Origin: Nocardioides iriomotensis
Lineage (GTDB): Bacteria; Actinomycetota; Actinomycetes; Propionibacteriales; Nocardioidaceae
Direction: 5' to 3'
Assembly (NCBI RefSeq): GCF_004168035.1
Contig: NZ_SDPU01000030.1
Span: 1 to 58,351, forward strand
Length of the DNA stretch: 58,351 nt
Part shown: in pieces, positions 1-5,820 of the stretch
How the letters are laid out: each line of letters starts with the position of its first letter
Numbering within the stretch: the stretch's first letter is position 1
Position numbers and translations under genes: made by a program
The notes under the pieces: model-generated
What the model saw: the letters and a program-made list of their open reading frames with translations, nothing else
What the model was told of the DNA's origin: nothing
The model's database searches: none

Positions 1-811
1 ACTGGAGCAGACGCAGGACGCCCTGCGGCGCCTGGTTGGCCTGGGCCAGCATCGCGGTGCCGGCCTGGGACAGGATCTGCGCGCGGGTGAAGCTGACCAT
101 CTCCGACGCCATGTCGGTGTCGCGGATCCGGCTCTCCGACGCCGAGAGGTTCTCCACCGCGACGTTGATGTTGTTGATGGTGTGCTCGAACCGGTTCTGG
201 ATCGCTCCCAGGTTCGCACGAGCCGAGGAGACCTTGGTGACCGCAGCCTGCACGGCGTCGCTCGCGTTCGCAGCCGTGATGTCAAGCGCGGTTGTGTCGG
301 TCGTGGGCTTGTAGGACAGGTCGACGGAGATGGTGTCCGCGCCGGCGTACCCGACCTGGAAGGAAACCGTGCCGGCCGGGGTCCCGGTGGCGTTGCCGAA
401 CAGGGCGACACCGTTGAACTTGGTGTTGGTCTCGATCCGGCCGACCTCAGTCTTGAGGGCGTCGAACTCCTGCTTCAGCGCCAGCTTGGACTCCGTGTTC
501 TGGGTGCCGTTGGCGTACTGAACTGACAGGTCGTTCATCCGCTGCAGCATCGAGTGCACCTCCGTGAGCGCACCCTCAGCGGTCTGGACGAGGCTGACAC
601 CGTCCTGGGCGTTGCGAGCCGCGACCTTGAGGCCACCAACCTGCGAGCGCAGGCCCTCGGAGATCGCGAGGCCGGCAGCGTCGTCGGCAGCGCGGTTGAT
701 GCGGAAGCCGCTGGACAGCTTCTCCAGGGACTTGGACATCTGGCCCTGGGTGACCGACAGGTTGCGGTACGAGTTGAAGGCGTCGATGTTCTGGTTGATG
801 CGAAGACCCAT
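1..811 (-). CDS. fliC: Flagellin (stop codon cut by window edge)
   Basis: Main filament subunit, exported by the flagellar type III system and polymerised on the hook-associated proteins. The 270 visible residues start MGLRINQNIDAFNSYR, the usual flagellin D0/D1 start, and end with the C-terminal D0 helix (SQAGTAMLAQANQ, then VLRLLQ). Only one base of the next codon is visible, so the stop is probably the next triplet. The conserved ends cover about residues 1-140 and 185-270, leaving a central domain of only about 45 residues, so this is a short flagellin like Bacillus Hag. AAGGAGG lies 8 nt before the ATG. Likely regulators are FliA (next gene) and CsrA/FliW; see the leader entry. Confidence 0.97.
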   Translation of the reverse strand, partial: MGLRINQNIDAFNSYRNLSVTQGQMSKSLEKLSSGFRINRAADDAAGLAISEGLRSQVGGLKVAARNAQDGVSLVQTAEGALTEVHSMLQRMNDLSVQYANGTQNTESKLALKQEFDALKTEVGRIETNTKFNGVALFGNATGTPAGTVSFQVGYAGADTISVDLSYKPTTDTTALDITAANASDAVQAAVTKVSSARANLGAIQNRFEHTINNINVAVENLSASESRIRDTDMASEMVSFTRAQILSQAGTAMLAQANQAPQGVLRLLQ

Positions 812-819
812 TTGATTTT

Positions 820-856
820 CCTCCTTGAAGCGGGTCGGCGGCTCCTCCATGAGCCG
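820..856 (-). promoter_or_regulatory. Flagellin leader: GGA-loop hairpin plus Shine-Dalgarno (putative CsrA sites)
   Basis: Read on the minus strand, CGGCTC-ATGGAG-GAGCCG (856 to 839) is a perfect 6-bp stem with a hexaloop holding ATGGA. The Shine-Dalgarno CAAGGAGGA follows (AAGGAGG at 826-820, 8 nt before the ATG). CsrA typically binds ANGGA in a hairpin loop together with a second GGA overlapping the ribosome-binding site, as in the Bacillus hag leader. Both halves are seen here, and fliW and csrA lie in the same locus. CsrA binding is an inference. Confidence 0.7.
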
Positions 857-964
857 CGCTGATGATGACTTCGGCCGGGTGGCCCCGGACCTGAAGGGAT
901 CTGAGTGGTTTTTTTGTCCGTTTCGCCCGATGCGCTCCTGGAGCAGCGCTCAGGCGGGGACGTC

Positions 965-1027: not shown

Positions 1028-1921
1028 TCAGGCGGTCGCGACGACCTCGGAGGCCGTCTGTGTCAGCCGCGACGCGAACGAGCGGTGCCCGGCGACGGAG
1101 GCGTAGTAGGCCTCCTTGCGACGGGCGGCGCAGCCCGCCTTGGCCGGCTCCTGGTGGAGCTCGGTGTCGAGGTTCGCGGTGAGCGCACCGCGGAGCAGCT
1201 GGACGGCCTCGGCACGTAGCTGTGAGATGCGCGAGTCGGTGACCCCGAGCTCGGCGGCGATCTCGGCCATCGGGCGCTCGGCGAAGAAGTAGCCACGCAC
1301 GACGACCTGGAGCCGCTCGGGCAGCTGGTCGACGGCGTCGTGCAGGTAGGCCAGACGCTCACGGTCCTCGAGTACGTCGAGCGGCGTGGGCCCGGCGGAG
1401 GGCAGGAGGTCCTCGGCGGTGCCGTCCTCGAAGCCGTCCAGCGACATCACGGAGGCGCGGGAGAGGTCGTCCTGGTGGGCGGCGAGCTCGGAGGTGCCCA
1501 TGCCCAGGGCGGCGGCGACCTCGGCGTCGGTGGCGACGCGGCCGAGAGTGACGGCCAGGGTGTTGCGGGCCTCGTCGACCTGGCGGGCGCGGCGGCGGAC
1601 CGAGCGGGAGGCCCAGTCGAGGCTGCGCAGCTCGTCCACGATCGCACCGCGAATGCGGGTGGCGGCGTAGCTGGAGAACTTGACGCCACGGGCCGGGTCG
1701 TAGGCGGCGGCGGCCTGGGCCAGCGCCATCATGCCGGCGGACATCAGGTCCTCGCGGGCCACGTGGCCTGGGACGCGGGTGGCCATGTCACGGACGATGT
1801 GACCGACCAGGGGCAGGGTCTGGCGGACCAGCGCGTCGGTGTCGACCTCCTGGACGGAGCCAGTGACCTGGGAGTCACGGTCGAGCACGGCGGCCGGAGC
1901 GGCAGCGGCAGGGGAGTTCAT
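1028..1921 (-). CDS. fliA: FliA/WhiG-family sigma factor (sigma-28 type)
   Basis: Alternative sigma factor for late flagellar genes such as flagellin. The protein has about 297 residues from the ATG at 1921; a GTG three codons upstream is the alternative start. Region 2 includes FSSYAATRIRGAIVDELRSL, the hallmark of the FliA/WhiG/SigB class. Region 3 follows at about 110-175, and region 4 (LPERLQVVV, then MAEIAAELGVTDSRISQLR) ends near residue 258. A tail of about 40 residues after region 4 has no domain I recognise. The gene sits between flagellin and the divergent flgN operon. I found no classical TAAA-N15-GCCGATAA promoter in the window, so its target sequence here is unknown. Confidence 0.93.
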   Translation of the reverse strand: MNSPAAAAPAAVLDRDSQVTGSVQEVDTDALVRQTLPLVGHIVRDMATRVPGHVAREDLMSAGMMALAQAAAAYDPARGVKFSSYAATRIRGAIVDELRSLDWASRSVRRRARQVDEARNTLAVTLGRVATDAEVAAALGMGTSELAAHQDDLSRASVMSLDGFEDGTAEDLLPSAGPTPLDVLEDRERLAYLHDAVDQLPERLQVVVRGYFFAERPMAEIAAELGVTDSRISQLRAEAVQLLRGALTANLDTELHQEPAKAGCAARRKEAYYASVAGHRSFASRLTQTASEVVATA

Positions 1922-2223
1922 CGGGAGCACGACGAGGTTCTCGGTGTCCGGCGTGCCCCGCTTTACTGCAGCTTCAACTTTTAGTCCGTGTCGCTGGCTT
2001 AATGGTCGGGCGGAGTCACCCCCGGAGTAGTCCTAGTGGGCCATACGGGTCTCGGCCGTTCAGGAAACTGGACGGATTTCGGTGCCAGGAAATGCTCAGA
2101 GGCTCGCGCAGCGCGCCGATCGGTACTGGGTCGTCACCTGTCCCGGTCACCACGACGGGCTCGGAGCAGCAGGGGGCGTCGCAACTCTGTTCACCAGGAT
2201 CACCAGCCCGAAGGGCCTGCACC
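1922..2223. promoter_or_regulatory. Divergent fliA/flgN intergenic region
   Basis: This is the longest non-coding stretch in the window. It must hold the divergent promoters for fliA and the flgN operon. The part nearest fliA (about 1960-2005) is AT-rich by local standards. A small hairpin with a GGAAAC loop lies at 2056-2075 (separate entry). I see no confident -35/-10 pair and no RNA gene. Confidence 0.5.
2056..2075 (+). repeat. Hairpin CCGTTCA-GGAAAC-TGGACGG upstream of flgN
   Basis: A 7-bp stem (one G-U pair) closes a GGAAAC hexaloop about 150 bp before flgN. The inner part, CA-NGAAAC-TGGAC, recurs in the hairpin upstream of the EAL gene at 9717-9752. It could be a protein-binding site, an RNA element or a small dispersed repeat. 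Confidence 0.5.
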
Positions 2224-2715
2224 ATGTCGATGGAAGACCTCTCCTCGGTTCTCTGGCGCGAGCGTGAGCTTCTCGAGACCCTCCTGTACAAGCTGGAGGT
2301 CGAGCAGCTGGTTCTGGCCGGGGGACGTACCCACTGGCTGGCCACCGCCGCCCGCGAGGTCGAGCGCGTGCTCGACCGCATCCGGGAGATCGAGGTGCTG
2401 CGCGCCCTCGAGCTCGACGCCGTGGCCGAGCAGCTCGGCCTGGAGCCCAACCCGAGCCTCCACGAGATCGCCGCCGCCAGCGACGAGCCGTGGCGCAGCA
2501 TCTGGCTCGACCACCGCGAGGCCTTCACCACCGTCGCGACGGAGATCTCCGCGATGTCGGAGACCAACCGCGAGCTGCTGACCGCCGGCTACCACGCCGC
2601 GCAGGCCACCCTGCTCTCCCTCTCCGACGGCGCCGGCACGTACGGCGCCGACGGCGCGCTGGCCACGCCGACCGCGGCCACCCGCCGCGCCTCGCTCCTG
2701 GACCGGAGCATCTGA
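2224..2715 (+). CDS. flgN: FlgN-like flagellar export chaperone
   Basis: Predicted cytoplasmic chaperone that keeps FlgK and FlgL unfolded for export. The 163-residue product is almost entirely helical with heptad-like charged segments (LLETLLYKLEVEQL, then VERVLDRIREIEVL), typical of FlgN although sequence conservation is low. The call rests mainly on position: it is directly upstream of flgK with a 4-bp gap. I chose the ATG reading MSMEDLSSV; a second ATG two codons later is possible. The open frame continues upstream without conserved sequence. Confidence 0.8.
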   Translation: MSMEDLSSVLWRERELLETLLYKLEVEQLVLAGGRTHWLATAAREVERVLDRIREIEVLRALELDAVAEQLGLEPNPSLHEIAAASDEPWRSIWLDHREAFTTVATEISAMSETNRELLTAGYHAAQATLLSLSDGAGTYGADGALATPTAATRRASLLDRSI

Positions 2716-2719
2716 CGTC

Positions 2720-4090
2720 ATGTCCGGCACCTTCTCCTCCTTCAACACGGCACTGTCCGCGCTGCGCTACAACCGCGTCGCGATGGACGTGGCTAGCGGC
2801 AACGTCGCCAACGCCGGCACGGAGGGGTACGCCCGTCGCCAGGTCGTCGGTCAGGCGACCGGCGCCCCGGCCGTCCCCGCGATGTGGTCCCGCTGGGACC
2901 TCAACAGCGGCGACGGCGTCCAGCCCGGCGGCATCAAGCGCATGGTCGACCCGCTGCTCGACGCGCGGGCGCGGCTGGAGCACTCCGCGTCCTCGTTCCT
3001 GGACGCCCGGGTCGACTCGCTGAACCGCTTCGAGACCGCGCTGGCCGAGCCGGGCGAGAACGGCGTCGCCGCCGCGCTGGCGTCGTACCAGGCCGGCTGG
3101 CACGACGTCGCCAACAACCCCGGCGACTCCGCCGCCCGCGCCCAGCTCCTCGCCCGCGCCGAGACCCTGCGCGCCGCCATCTCCGGCCAGGACCGCGCGG
3201 TCCGCACCGAGTGGGCCGACCAGCGGTCGCGGCTCTCCGCCGCCGCCGAGGAGGTCAACCAGGTCGCAGCCGAGCTGGCCAAGGTCAACGACGGCCTGCG
3301 CAGCTCCTACGTCGCCGAGACCGACGCCGGCGTGCTGCTCGACCAGCGCGACCTGCTCACGATGCGGCTCGCCGAGCTCACCGGCAGCAAGATCACGATC
3401 AACCCGGACACCACCGTCGACGTCACGGTCGCGGGCCAGCCGCTGGTCACCGGCAACGTCGCCGCCGCGGTCACCGTCACCGGCGCGACCGAGCTGGCCG
3501 ACGCTGCCGCAAGCCCGGTGCAGCTCCTTGTGGGCGGTACGGCGGTGACGCTGACCGCCGGCGAGGTCGGCGGCATCCAGAGCGTGATGAACACCGACCT
3601 GCCCAACTACCTCACCAAGCTCGACGCGTTCGTCGCGCAGCTGGTCAGCGACACCAACACCCAGCACGCGCTCGGCAGGGACCTCGACGGCGACGCGGGC
3701 GCACCGTTCTTCGCGGGGACGACGGCCGCCACGCTGACCGTCGCGATCATCGACCCGAAGGACGTCGCGGCCGGCGACCCGACCAAGGGCAAGCTCGACG
3801 GCAGCAACGCCACCGCCCTGGCCGGCCTCGACATGGGCGGCCGGTCGTACCGCGAGCTGATCACGACCACCGGCGTCCTCATCTCCTCCGCGAACCGCGG
3901 GGCCGCCAACCAGTCGGTGCTGGTCTCCCAGGTCGACGCCTCCCGTGAGGCGCTGTCCGGCATCAGCATCGACGAGGAGATGGTCAACCTGCTCGCCGCC
4001 CAGCGCGGCTACGAAGGAGCGTCGCGGGTGCTCACCACGATCGACTCCGTCCTCGACACCCTGATCAACCGGACGGGCCTGCTGCGATGA
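2720..4090 (+). CDS. flgK: Flagellar hook-associated protein 1 FlgK
   Basis: Forms the first hook-filament junction ring. The 456-residue protein is near the short end of the family. It has the rod/hook N-terminal signature (GNVANAGTEGYARRQV, about residues 29-44) and the C-terminal helix (EEMVNLLAAQRGYEGASRVL). The middle, about 200-340, is the variable surface region, rich in threonine and valine. It is the second gene of flgN-flgK-flgL-fliW-csrA and overlaps flgL by 4 bases (ATGA), so the two are probably translationally coupled. Confidence 0.96.
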   Translation: MSGTFSSFNTALSALRYNRVAMDVASGNVANAGTEGYARRQVVGQATGAPAVPAMWSRWDLNSGDGVQPGGIKRMVDPLLDARARLEHSASSFLDARVDSLNRFETALAEPGENGVAAALASYQAGWHDVANNPGDSAARAQLLARAETLRAAISGQDRAVRTEWADQRSRLSAAAEEVNQVAAELAKVNDGLRSSYVAETDAGVLLDQRDLLTMRLAELTGSKITINPDTTVDVTVAGQPLVTGNVAAAVTVTGATELADAAASPVQLLVGGTAVTLTAGEVGGIQSVMNTDLPNYLTKLDAFVAQLVSDTNTQHALGRDLDGDAGAPFFAGTTAATLTVAIIDPKDVAAGDPTKGKLDGSNATALAGLDMGGRSYRELITTTGVLISSANRGAANQSVLVSQVDASREALSGISIDEEMVNLLAAQRGYEGASRVLTTIDSVLDTLINRTGLLR

Positions 4091-4977
4091 CGACGACACC
4101 ACGTGTGACCCAGCGACTGATGATGGAGCGCTCCCTCACCGCGCTCAACACCGGGATGGGCCGCCTGGCCCGGACCCAGGAGCAGCTGTCCACCGGCCGG
4201 CTGATCAACCGGCCGTCGGACTCACCGACGGGCACCAACGACGCGATGCGGCTGCGGGCCCAGATGTCCGCCGACACGCAGTACTCGCGCAATGCCTCCG
4301 ACGGGCTGGCCGCGCTCGGCCAGGCCGACAGCACCCTGCAGTCCATGAGCGACCAGGTCCGCCGGGCCCGCGAGCTCATCCTCCAGGGCAAGTCCACGGG
4401 CTCCGCCGGACCCGAGGCGCGCACCGCCCTCGCCACCGAGCTGACGCAGATCCGGGAGTCGCTGCTCACCATGGCCAACACCCAGCACATGGGCCGCTCG
4501 CTGTTCGGCGGTACGTCGGACAACCCGGTCGCCTACCAGCCCGACGGCTCGTTCGTCGGCGACGCCAACGAGGTCGACCGCACGGTCGGCCAGGGCATCA
4601 GCGTGAAGGTGAACGTCGCGGGCCCCGACGCCTTCGGCACCGGCGCGGACAACCTGTTCAACGTCCTCACCGGCGCGATCGGCAACCTGACCGGGGACCC
4701 CACCCAGCTCGGTGGCGACCTCGACAAGCTCGACGCCGTCGCGACCACGATGCGCACCGCGCTGGCCGACGTCGGCACCCGCTATGGTCGGGTCGAGACG
4801 GCGATGAGCACGCTCACCGACGCCAACCTCACCAGCACGGCGGCGCTCTCCGAGGTGGAGAACGTCGACATCGCCAAGGCGGTGGTCGACCTCCAGATGC
4901 AGGAGGTCGCCTACCAGGCAGCACTGGGCGCGACCGCCCGCGTGCTGCAGCCCTCGCTGCTGGACTTCCTGCGGTGA
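4087..4977 (+). CDS. flgL: Flagellar hook-associated protein 3 FlgL
   Basis: Second junction protein, placed between FlgK and the flagellin filament. Its 296 residues carry flagellin-like helical ends: an N-terminal LNTGMGRLARTQEQLSTGRL with NRPSDSPTGTNDAMRLR, and a C-terminal YQAALGATARVLQPSLLDFL. The residue 150-200 region is the short variable domain. The start ATG overlaps the flgK stop, and its own stop overlaps the fliW GTG, both by 4 bases. Length and order match hook-associated operons of other motile actinomycetes. Confidence 0.95.
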   Translation: MTTTPRVTQRLMMERSLTALNTGMGRLARTQEQLSTGRLINRPSDSPTGTNDAMRLRAQMSADTQYSRNASDGLAALGQADSTLQSMSDQVRRARELILQGKSTGSAGPEARTALATELTQIRESLLTMANTQHMGRSLFGGTSDNPVAYQPDGSFVGDANEVDRTVGQGISVKVNVAGPDAFGTGADNLFNVLTGAIGNLTGDPTQLGGDLDKLDAVATTMRTALADVGTRYGRVETAMSTLTDANLTSTAALSEVENVDIAKAVVDLQMQEVAYQAALGATARVLQPSLLDFLR

Positions 4978-5435
4978 CGGCCGTGGCAACCGTCGAGATG
5001 ACGACTTCGACGCAGACGACCCAGGAGGACGCGACCGTGTCTGGCGAGATCCCCGTGCTGGAGATGGTGCACCCGTTCGTCGGGTTCCCCGACCACACCC
5101 GGTTCGCGCTCGCCCGGCTCGACGACGAGGGCACGGTCTGCGACCTGCGCTCGGTCGACGACCCGGCCGTGAGCTTCGTGGTGGTCCCGCCGCACGTGTT
5201 CTTCGCCGACTACGGCCCGGAGGTCGACGACAGCACCGTCGCGATGCTCGGGGTCGAGAGCGAGGACGACCTGCTCACGCTGGTCGTGGTCACGCTCGGC
5301 GAGACGGCCGAGGACGCGACCGCCAACCTGCTCGCGCCGGTGCTGGTCAACCACCGCACCCGCAGGGCTGCGCAGGTCGTGCTGGACGACCTCGAGCTGC
5401 CGATCAAGGCTCCGCTCGCCGGCGCCTCGGCCTGA
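4974..5435 (+). CDS. fliW: Flagellar assembly factor FliW
   Basis: FliW is a small beta-barrel protein that binds flagellin and allosterically sequesters CsrA. When flagellin is exported, FliW is freed, traps CsrA and lets flagellin be translated. The 153-residue product shows the family core (PVLEMVHPFVGFPDHTRFAL, then VVPPHVFFADYGPEV and LLTLVVVTLGETAEDATANL). The GTG start overlaps flgL; the first 20-odd residues are poorly conserved, so initiation at the GTG near 5038 is possible. Adjacent csrA completes the partner-switch pair. Confidence 0.94.
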   Translation: MTAVATVEMTTSTQTTQEDATVSGEIPVLEMVHPFVGFPDHTRFALARLDDEGTVCDLRSVDDPAVSFVVVPPHVFFADYGPEVDDSTVAMLGVESEDDLLTLVVVTLGETAEDATANLLAPVLVNHRTRRAAQVVLDDLELPIKAPLAGASA

Positions 5436-5544: not shown

Positions 5545-5820
5545 ATGCTGGTGCTGAGCCGTCGCCTCGGCGAGAGCGTCGTGATCGGCGACGACGTCGT
5601 GGTCACCGTGCTCGAGGTCCGCGGGGACGTGGTCCGGATCGGCGTCGACGCCCCGCGCAGCGTCCCGGTCCGCCGGCAGGAGCTCCTCGAGGAGGTCGCG
5701 GCGACCAACAAGCAGGCCGCCTCCCCGTCGCCGCAGGCCGTGGCGGACCTGTCCCGCCTGGTGGGCTCGCCGGCCACGCCGAAGCAGCCGCCGACGGAGC
5801 GACCGGGCCAGTCCTCGTAG
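5545..5820 (+). CDS. csrA: Carbon storage regulator CsrA
   Basis: RNA-binding translational repressor that recognises GGA motifs. It opens with the canonical MLVLSRRLGESVVIGDDVVV and has the RNA-contacting VPVRRQELLEEV segment at about residues 44-55. With 91 residues it is longer than usual; from about residue 60 a proline/serine-rich tail is added, which could affect FliW contact. AGGAGG is well placed before the ATG. CsrA is uncommon in actinobacteria outside flagellated lineages. The likely local target is the flagellin leader; a terminator follows. Confidence 0.95.
   Translation: MLVLSRRLGESVVIGDDVVVTVLEVRGDVVRIGVDAPRSVPVRRQELLEEVAATNKQAASPSPQAVADLSRLVGSPATPKQPPTERPGQSS

Follow-up and report, generated by a model that had tools for sequence, protein, structure and literature searches.

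The flagellin leader of Nocardioides iriomotensis as a probable two-site target of a CsrA-FliW switch that may also act on the flbD-motA-motB-fliL operon

The flagellin leader of Nocardioides iriomotensis is probably a two-site CsrA target that is released by FliW, and the same CsrA most likely also acts on the leader of the flbD-motA-motB-fliL operon; we put the probability of this reading at about 85 %. We observed the sequences themselves, their conservation and covariation among relatives, the gene neighbourhood and the residues of CsrA. Read from these, a CsrA-FliW-flagellin switch of the type found in Bacillus and Campylobacter appears well supported here. By comparison among relatives, the claim for the flagellin leader as a predicted target is strong, and the claim for the flbD leader, considered within the family (Nocardioidaceae), seems almost as strong where the sequence feature is concerned and weaker with regard to function.

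The window, by which we mean the whole analysed stretch of 58,351 nucleotides, begins at the first position of its contig (G000:C24:1) and holds the following features.

Positions 2 to 811, minus strand: flagellin gene (fliC/hag type; Pfam Flagellin_N and Flagellin_C), truncated at its 3' end where the contig begins.
Positions 819 to 826, minus strand: Shine-Dalgarno sequence AAGGAGGA, putative CsrA site 2, enclosed by no more than a weak hairpin of 3 bp.
Positions 838 to 857, minus strand: leader hairpin SL1 of 7 bp, putative CsrA site 1, conserved and covarying in relatives.
Positions 845 to 850, minus strand: hexaloop AUGGAG of SL1; the commonest loops in relatives are ACGGAC and ACGGAU.
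Positions 870 to 894, minus strand: sigma28 (FliA)-like promoter (TCAGGTC-spacer-GCCGAA), immediately preceding the hairpin.
Positions 1028 to 1930, minus strand: flagellar sigma factor gene (Sigma70_r2/r3/r4 domains), of FliA type by position.
Positions 2224 to 2715, plus strand: flgN (Pfam FlgN).
Positions 2720 to 4090, plus strand: flgK (Pfam FlgK_D1).
Positions 4087 to 4977, plus strand: flgL, by its Flagellin_N/C domains and its position after flgK.
Positions 4974 to 5435, plus strand: fliW, encoding the CsrA antagonist (Pfam FliW, E 3.8e-33; PDB 5dmb_A, E 6.2e-17), exact start uncertain.
Positions 5545 to 5820, plus strand: csrA, encoding 91 aa with R44, V51 and N55 (Pfam CsrA, E 3.7e-23; PDB 5dmb_D and 1t3o).

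The order flgN-flgK-flgL-fliW-csrA thus runs along the plus strand, and the FliA-type sigma factor gene lies upstream of the flagellin gene and on the same strand. An earlier note on this DNA had proposed a switch of the Bacillus hag design with fliW and csrA encoded some 4 kb away in the flagellar operon; the distances from the leader are 4.1 and 4.7 kb, respectively, and the design as a whole is borne out, as far as analogy goes, by the conservation and covariation of the leader, the presence of FliW and the residues of CsrA described below. Both csrA and fliW are present near the flagellar genes, and only one CsrA match was found in the genome.

The flagellin AUG is at 811-809. Upstream of it, the arms of SL1 at 857-851 and 844-838 (GCGGCTC/GAGCCGC) form seven of seven pairs around the loop AUGGAG at 850-845, so that the perfect hairpin with ATGGA in its loop, as read by the earlier note, was confirmed. 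GGA triplets occur in the leader at 848-846 (in the loop), 845-843, 824-822 and 821-819, with 21 nt from the loop GGA to the first GGA of the Shine-Dalgarno sequence. The second GGA does overlap the Shine-Dalgarno sequence as had been claimed, but the gap from hairpin to Shine-Dalgarno sequence is 11 nt instead of the 12 nt given, and the location of 820 to 856 was correct except for one base missing at each end. The loop of the window ends in G, which is rare among the loops of relatives.

The AUG of the loop (850-848) shares its reading frame with the one at 811, no stop codon intervenes, and it could in principle be the true flagellin start, in which case the hairpin would be coding and its GGA incidental. 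We find this scarcely credible: AUG is present in only 11 of 113 hairpin loops among the leaders, the start at 811 is preceded by the Shine-Dalgarno sequence at 826-819, and the protein read from 811 matches the flagellin N terminus.

The fold energy of the window's leader was unexceptional (z = 0.05, with 103 of 200 shuffles folding equally well), and the flbD leader of the same genome likewise folded no better than shuffles, its best predicted fold being one without the Shine-Dalgarno hairpin. Energy therefore carried no signal for either leader and was left out of the evidence; the case for the hairpin is made by comparison. Rfam returned a lone match on the opposite strand (15.3 bits against a gathering score of 49.5), and a further Rfam scan was empty.

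We collected 115 distinct flagellin leaders from the family and the rest of the class and scored them by a strict criterion, an ANGGAN hexaloop on at least four contiguous pairs. Such a hairpin was present in 99 leaders, and the corresponding rates were 0.8 % for dinucleotide shuffles (n = 5,750) and 0.6 % for random windows (n = 40,000); these counts, like all others reported here, are inflated by the relatedness of the genomes. The earlier note had named absence of the hairpin from closely related flagellin genes as evidence that would count against its proposal, and 80 of the 84 family leaders carried it, together with 19 of the 31 from elsewhere in the class; 12 of the 16 leaders that missed the criterion were among these 31. 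A looser, score-based criterion was passed by 113 of the 115 leaders and also by 10 % of shuffles. The two remaining leaders (L124 and L145) lacked the ANGGAN hairpin although CsrA was present in both genomes, and the genome of L124 holds three further flagellin copies, all with the hairpin.

An alignment (A1) was made from 103 of the 113 leaders that passed the looser criterion, ten having been excluded by hand for odd spacing, near-duplication or an unclear start, and it omits both hairpin-less leaders. Within A1, 92.1 % of pair cells were paired and 106 cells were compensatory on both sides, with both-side changes at five of the six pairs. The covariation score was 0.442; shuffles scored 0.138 and controls with a slid partner no more than 0.090. 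RNAalifold, given no structure, returned exactly the SL1 hairpin. The GGA-loop hairpin of the flagellin leader is conserved by covariation.

Beyond the class, where we examined 33 of the 37 flagellated genomes of a draw from the phylum, 21 of the 43 distinct leaders, from 17 of the 33 genomes, had the strict hairpin and the other 22 did not, as compared with 0.5 % of resampled sequences; the stem was often unrelated in sequence, around AAGGAU or ACGGAU. A relaxed GGA-hairpin criterion with loops of 5-8 nt was dropped outside the class, 25 % of resampled sequences passing it. At the Shine-Dalgarno sequence, a small hairpin with a GGA loop and a stem of 4 bp or more was present in 32 of the 84 family leaders against 7 % of controls (3 bp in the window). 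A sigma28-like pattern, written after inspecting the leaders, had hits in 32 of 86 and in 8 of 39 regions upstream of flagellin genes, with resampled controls below 0.7 %. For the hairpin counts outside the class, the Shine-Dalgarno hairpins and the promoters, the controls were Markov-resampled sequences and not exact shuffles.

A few loci differed from the common arrangement. Four tandem flagellin-like matches are present at L068 (G020), two with the full hairpin, one with a degenerate hairpin and a fourth, about 49 % identical, in which none was seen. In four flagellin leaders of family f54 (L224, L225, L229 and L230) the strict upstream hairpin was missing and a 3-bp GGA hexaloop stood at the Shine-Dalgarno sequence, and the flbD leaders of two of these genomes (L395 and L397) carried the strict hairpin.

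The occurrence of CsrA followed that of flagellin. Among 245 family genomes, flagellin was found in 83 and CsrA in 85; 81 had both, two flagellin only, four CsrA only and 158 neither. CsrA was also found in 29 of 30 flagellin genomes drawn from the class (10 of the 30 being family genomes) and in 39 of 40 drawn from the phylum, one of them by a partial match. FliW was present in 50 of 50 loci, which had been selected to reach from flagellin as far as csrA; tblastn detected csrA in 49 of them, and the fiftieth genome was positive by Pfam. The four flagellin genomes with no CsrA match (G014, G244, G267 and G696) neither support nor refute the switch, because all four assemblies are fragmented; the contig of G244 ends short of the expected position of csrA. 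In the draws from family, class and phylum we found no flagellated genome that securely lacks CsrA. As for the genomes with CsrA only, a flagellin start is present at a contig end in G062, and the 14-17 kb examined around csrA in G112, G142 and G099 held none of the remaining cluster genes.

These distributions also bear on whether the hairpin is kept for some other reason, such as protection of the 5' end or recognition by a different protein, with CsrA making no use of it. The hairpin starts close to the likely transcript start, which is a usual site of stabilising stems, and three of the draft genomes with no CsrA match (G014, G244 and G267) still carry it. A stabilising stem, however, needs no fixed GGA loop, and here the stem sequence varies freely while the ANGGAN loop is kept; moreover, flagellin is accompanied by csrA and fliW in the proportions given above. 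We therefore regard this explanation as quite improbable and prefer a CsrA site.

Several divergent or short CsrA copies were met in these searches. Those of G112 (L192, 57 aa) and G142 (L191, 58 aa) end approximately where the FliW-contact region would be and are possibly relics after flagellar loss. Divergent homologues at L188 (contig C94 of G509, where it is a second CsrA copy) and L183 (G343) had no cluster gene in the surrounding 12 kb.

The CsrA of the window has R44, implicated in RNA binding, and V51 and N55, implicated in FliW binding. According to the available text of PMC7829508, these three residues matter for RNA and FliW binding elsewhere, V51 and N55 being needed for FliW binding in Campylobacter and N55 also in Bacillus. 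V42, R44 and N55 were invariant across 12 hand-picked CsrA proteins. Among 123 distinct relatives, R44 was present in 112 and N55 in 99, counted by raw position, which insertions and short copies disturb; by the same count residue 51 was L in 67, I in 31 and V in 17, with V or I in 48. The protein aligns to the FliW-bound CsrA 5dmb_D and to Bacillus 1t3o past the core domain, up to residue 69-70. Its C-terminal tail, described as unusually long in the earlier note, proved long but ordinary: 63 of the 123 proteins have 77-81 aa and 16 have at least 91 aa, the length of the window's CsrA. The tail is an ordinary FliW-type extension with a short species-specific end, and a search of solved structures with the tail by itself yielded nothing of use.

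Upstream of csrA itself, TANNNT was found 4-8 nt before the start in 60 of 122 distinct regions, as compared with 2.8 % of shuffles, which suggests that these csrA messages may be leaderless; the csrA of the window differs in having a Shine-Dalgarno sequence. We considered autoregulation of csrA and rejected it as a candidate, the lone R1 match before the window's csrA (R1 being the covariance model described next) being weak (15.6 bits, E 0.11); by eye, no such hairpin was spotted in the 50 of 123 csrA upstream regions that were inspected.

A covariance model (R1) was built from flagellin leaders and run on 149 family genomes. Its 47 matches with E < 1e-5 were without exception at flagellin starts; each of the 46 genomes that have a flagellin gene contributed to them, and the 103 others had none, their best match reaching an E value of 1.4e-4. 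As the matches are mostly the model's own training sequences, the informative part of the scan is that no other strong place was found, and not the recovery of these leaders. In the genome of the window, the flagellin leader, a member of the model, scored 41.5 bits, followed by a match of 20.1 bits (E 0.037). A weak match about 12.5 kb from flagellin in G033 was rejected; it lacks a GGA loop and stands before a gene of hook type. Three weaker matches about 13 kb from flagellin lay before the FlbD gene, and this is how the flbD leader was found.

FlbD was present in 80 of 241 family genomes, and its leader was examined in 73 of the 80 (73 distinct sequences; seven left out). The ANGGAN motif was in place in all 73 leaders and stood on at least four contiguous pairs in 68. 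The Shine-Dalgarno GGA lay in the loop of a second hairpin, typically GCAC-AAGGAUG-GUGC, in 67 of 73 (68 under slightly wider limits), as compared with 3.4 % of resampled sequences, and a sigma28-like promoter preceded flbD in 61 of 73 against 0.3 % of controls. An alignment of 69 of the 73 leaders (A2, from which four with long spacers were excluded) gave a covariation score of 0.244 against 0.062 for shuffles, carried by the first hairpin; four pairs changed on both sides, a number reached by 358 of 500 shuffles. The stem of the Shine-Dalgarno hairpin is nearly invariant and hardly covaries, and because it hardly varies its covariation says little.

In the genome of the window, the flbD copy is on another contig (C22:36500-41500, L330) and is followed by motA, motB and fliL. 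A model of the flbD leader (R2) scored it, as a member of the model, at 55 bits, the next match reaching 23.2 bits (E 0.066); we claim no third target in this genome from the R1 and R2 scans. Scanning 84,980 genomes (species) with a flbD-leader pattern returned 17 stretches, all before flbD: 16 plainly so, and in the remaining one (L420) a FlbD frame follows without the usual start codon. They belong to Nocardioides, to Nocardioidaceae and, in one case, to a genome labelled Actinomycetota, and some are identical or near-identical. Outside the family, FlbD was found in 32 of 32 hand-picked flagellated genomes and the flbD hairpin in 8 of 29 loci, one of them doubtful, with one more by model R2 (L379); these 29 came from 34 flbD matches, and at least three (L377, L379 and L387) were probably read from a wrong start. 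The gene order recurs in published genomes: swrD-motA-ompA-fliL of Actinosynnema pretiosum is read as one operon in the available text of PMC9019756, and the gene table of Kineococcus lists flbD, motA, motB and fliL consecutively (PMC2587704).

It could be that CsrA acts on the flagellin leader only and that the likeness of the flbD leader has some other role, perhaps in translational coupling or as an accessory to the promoter. The patchy occurrence of the flbD hairpin outside the family would fit this, as would the target described for Bacillus, which in the text available is hag. Within the family, however, the flbD leader has the same ANGGAN hexaloop, a covarying stem, the sigma28-like promoter and the GGA loop at the Shine-Dalgarno sequence in the proportions given above, and we consider restriction to flagellin unlikely. 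Control of both leaders by CsrA remains our preferred reading.

By analogy with Bacillus and Campylobacter, we propose that a CsrA dimer would place one RNA-binding surface on the GGA of the hexaloop and the other on the GGA of the Shine-Dalgarno sequence, and that this two-site hold on the flagellin leader would block the ribosome and repress translation. FliW, encoded next to csrA, would bind either flagellin or CsrA. Once flagellin is exported through the finished hook, free FliW would take CsrA off the leader and flagellin would be made. The leader of flbD-motA-motB-fliL would be held by the same CsrA, and synthesis of the stator, MotA and MotB included, would be freed by the same FliW signal. 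A wider version, to which we give slightly better than even odds, is that in motile members of the family CsrA acts as a switch specifically for motility and has two conserved targets, flagellin and flbD-motA-motB-fliL, with flagellin export working through FliW to free the translation of filament and stator together. In this version the flagellin message, being abundant, may also titrate CsrA to the benefit of the stator operon, much as the flaA leader favours other mRNAs in Campylobacter. If the FlbD/motor stator operon is indeed the second target, as seems likely, filament growth would be tied to motor power via one RNA-binding protein, and the filament and its rotary motor may be under the control of a single switch.

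The earlier note had called the system little documented in high-GC Gram-positives, and this stands in part. The idea has forerunners. In 2008 the flagellin Shine-Dalgarno sequence of Kineococcus was matched to BS2 and CsrA control was proposed, with csrA noted next to flagellar genes in three further actinobacteria (PMC2587704); a term search of that paper found FliW, BS1 and stem-loop all missing and 'hairpin' in other contexts only. FliW control of CsrA was proposed for Actinobacteria in 2015 from gene distribution (PMC4682653, as far as its text was available), and the accessible part of a study of actinobacterial flagella has CsrA and FliW among its search proteins (PMC10746217). As far as we found, the proposals for actinobacteria had been drawn from the distribution of genes and a single Shine-Dalgarno match. 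Neither PMC2587704 nor the available text of PMC4682653 describes the leader hairpin, its covariation or flbD as a CsrA target, and in the literature searched, mostly outside subscription journals and partly in excerpt, we found no description of an actinobacterial hairpin or of CsrA control of flbD. The comparisons reported here provide base-pair-level evidence suggesting that the flagellar checkpoint of Bacillus and Campylobacter extends to actinobacterial flagellin, and the new part is the leader of flbD-motA-motB-fliL, which lies outside the window.

The flagellin leader resembles that of Bacillus subtilis hag, which, in the text available of PMC7652899 and PMC6529632, has two CsrA sites, one of them on the Shine-Dalgarno sequence, and a protein antagonist, FliW, that contacts the extended C terminus of CsrA. 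The system described here differs in that a second operon, flbD-motA-motB-fliL, has the same type of leader and is a predicted further target. The leader is also like that of Campylobacter jejuni flaA, to which CsrA binding was measured; as described in the available text of PMC4894983, that leader is short and forms two ANGGA stem-loops, of which the second lies at the ribosome site; its GGA motifs are 21 nt apart, and compensatory changes conserve it. In contrast to flaA, the second loop of the window is weak, at 3 bp. Other flagellar mRNAs are lower-affinity CsrA targets in Campylobacter according to the same text, and where the second target there is flaG, flaB or flgI, the one proposed here is the stator operon.
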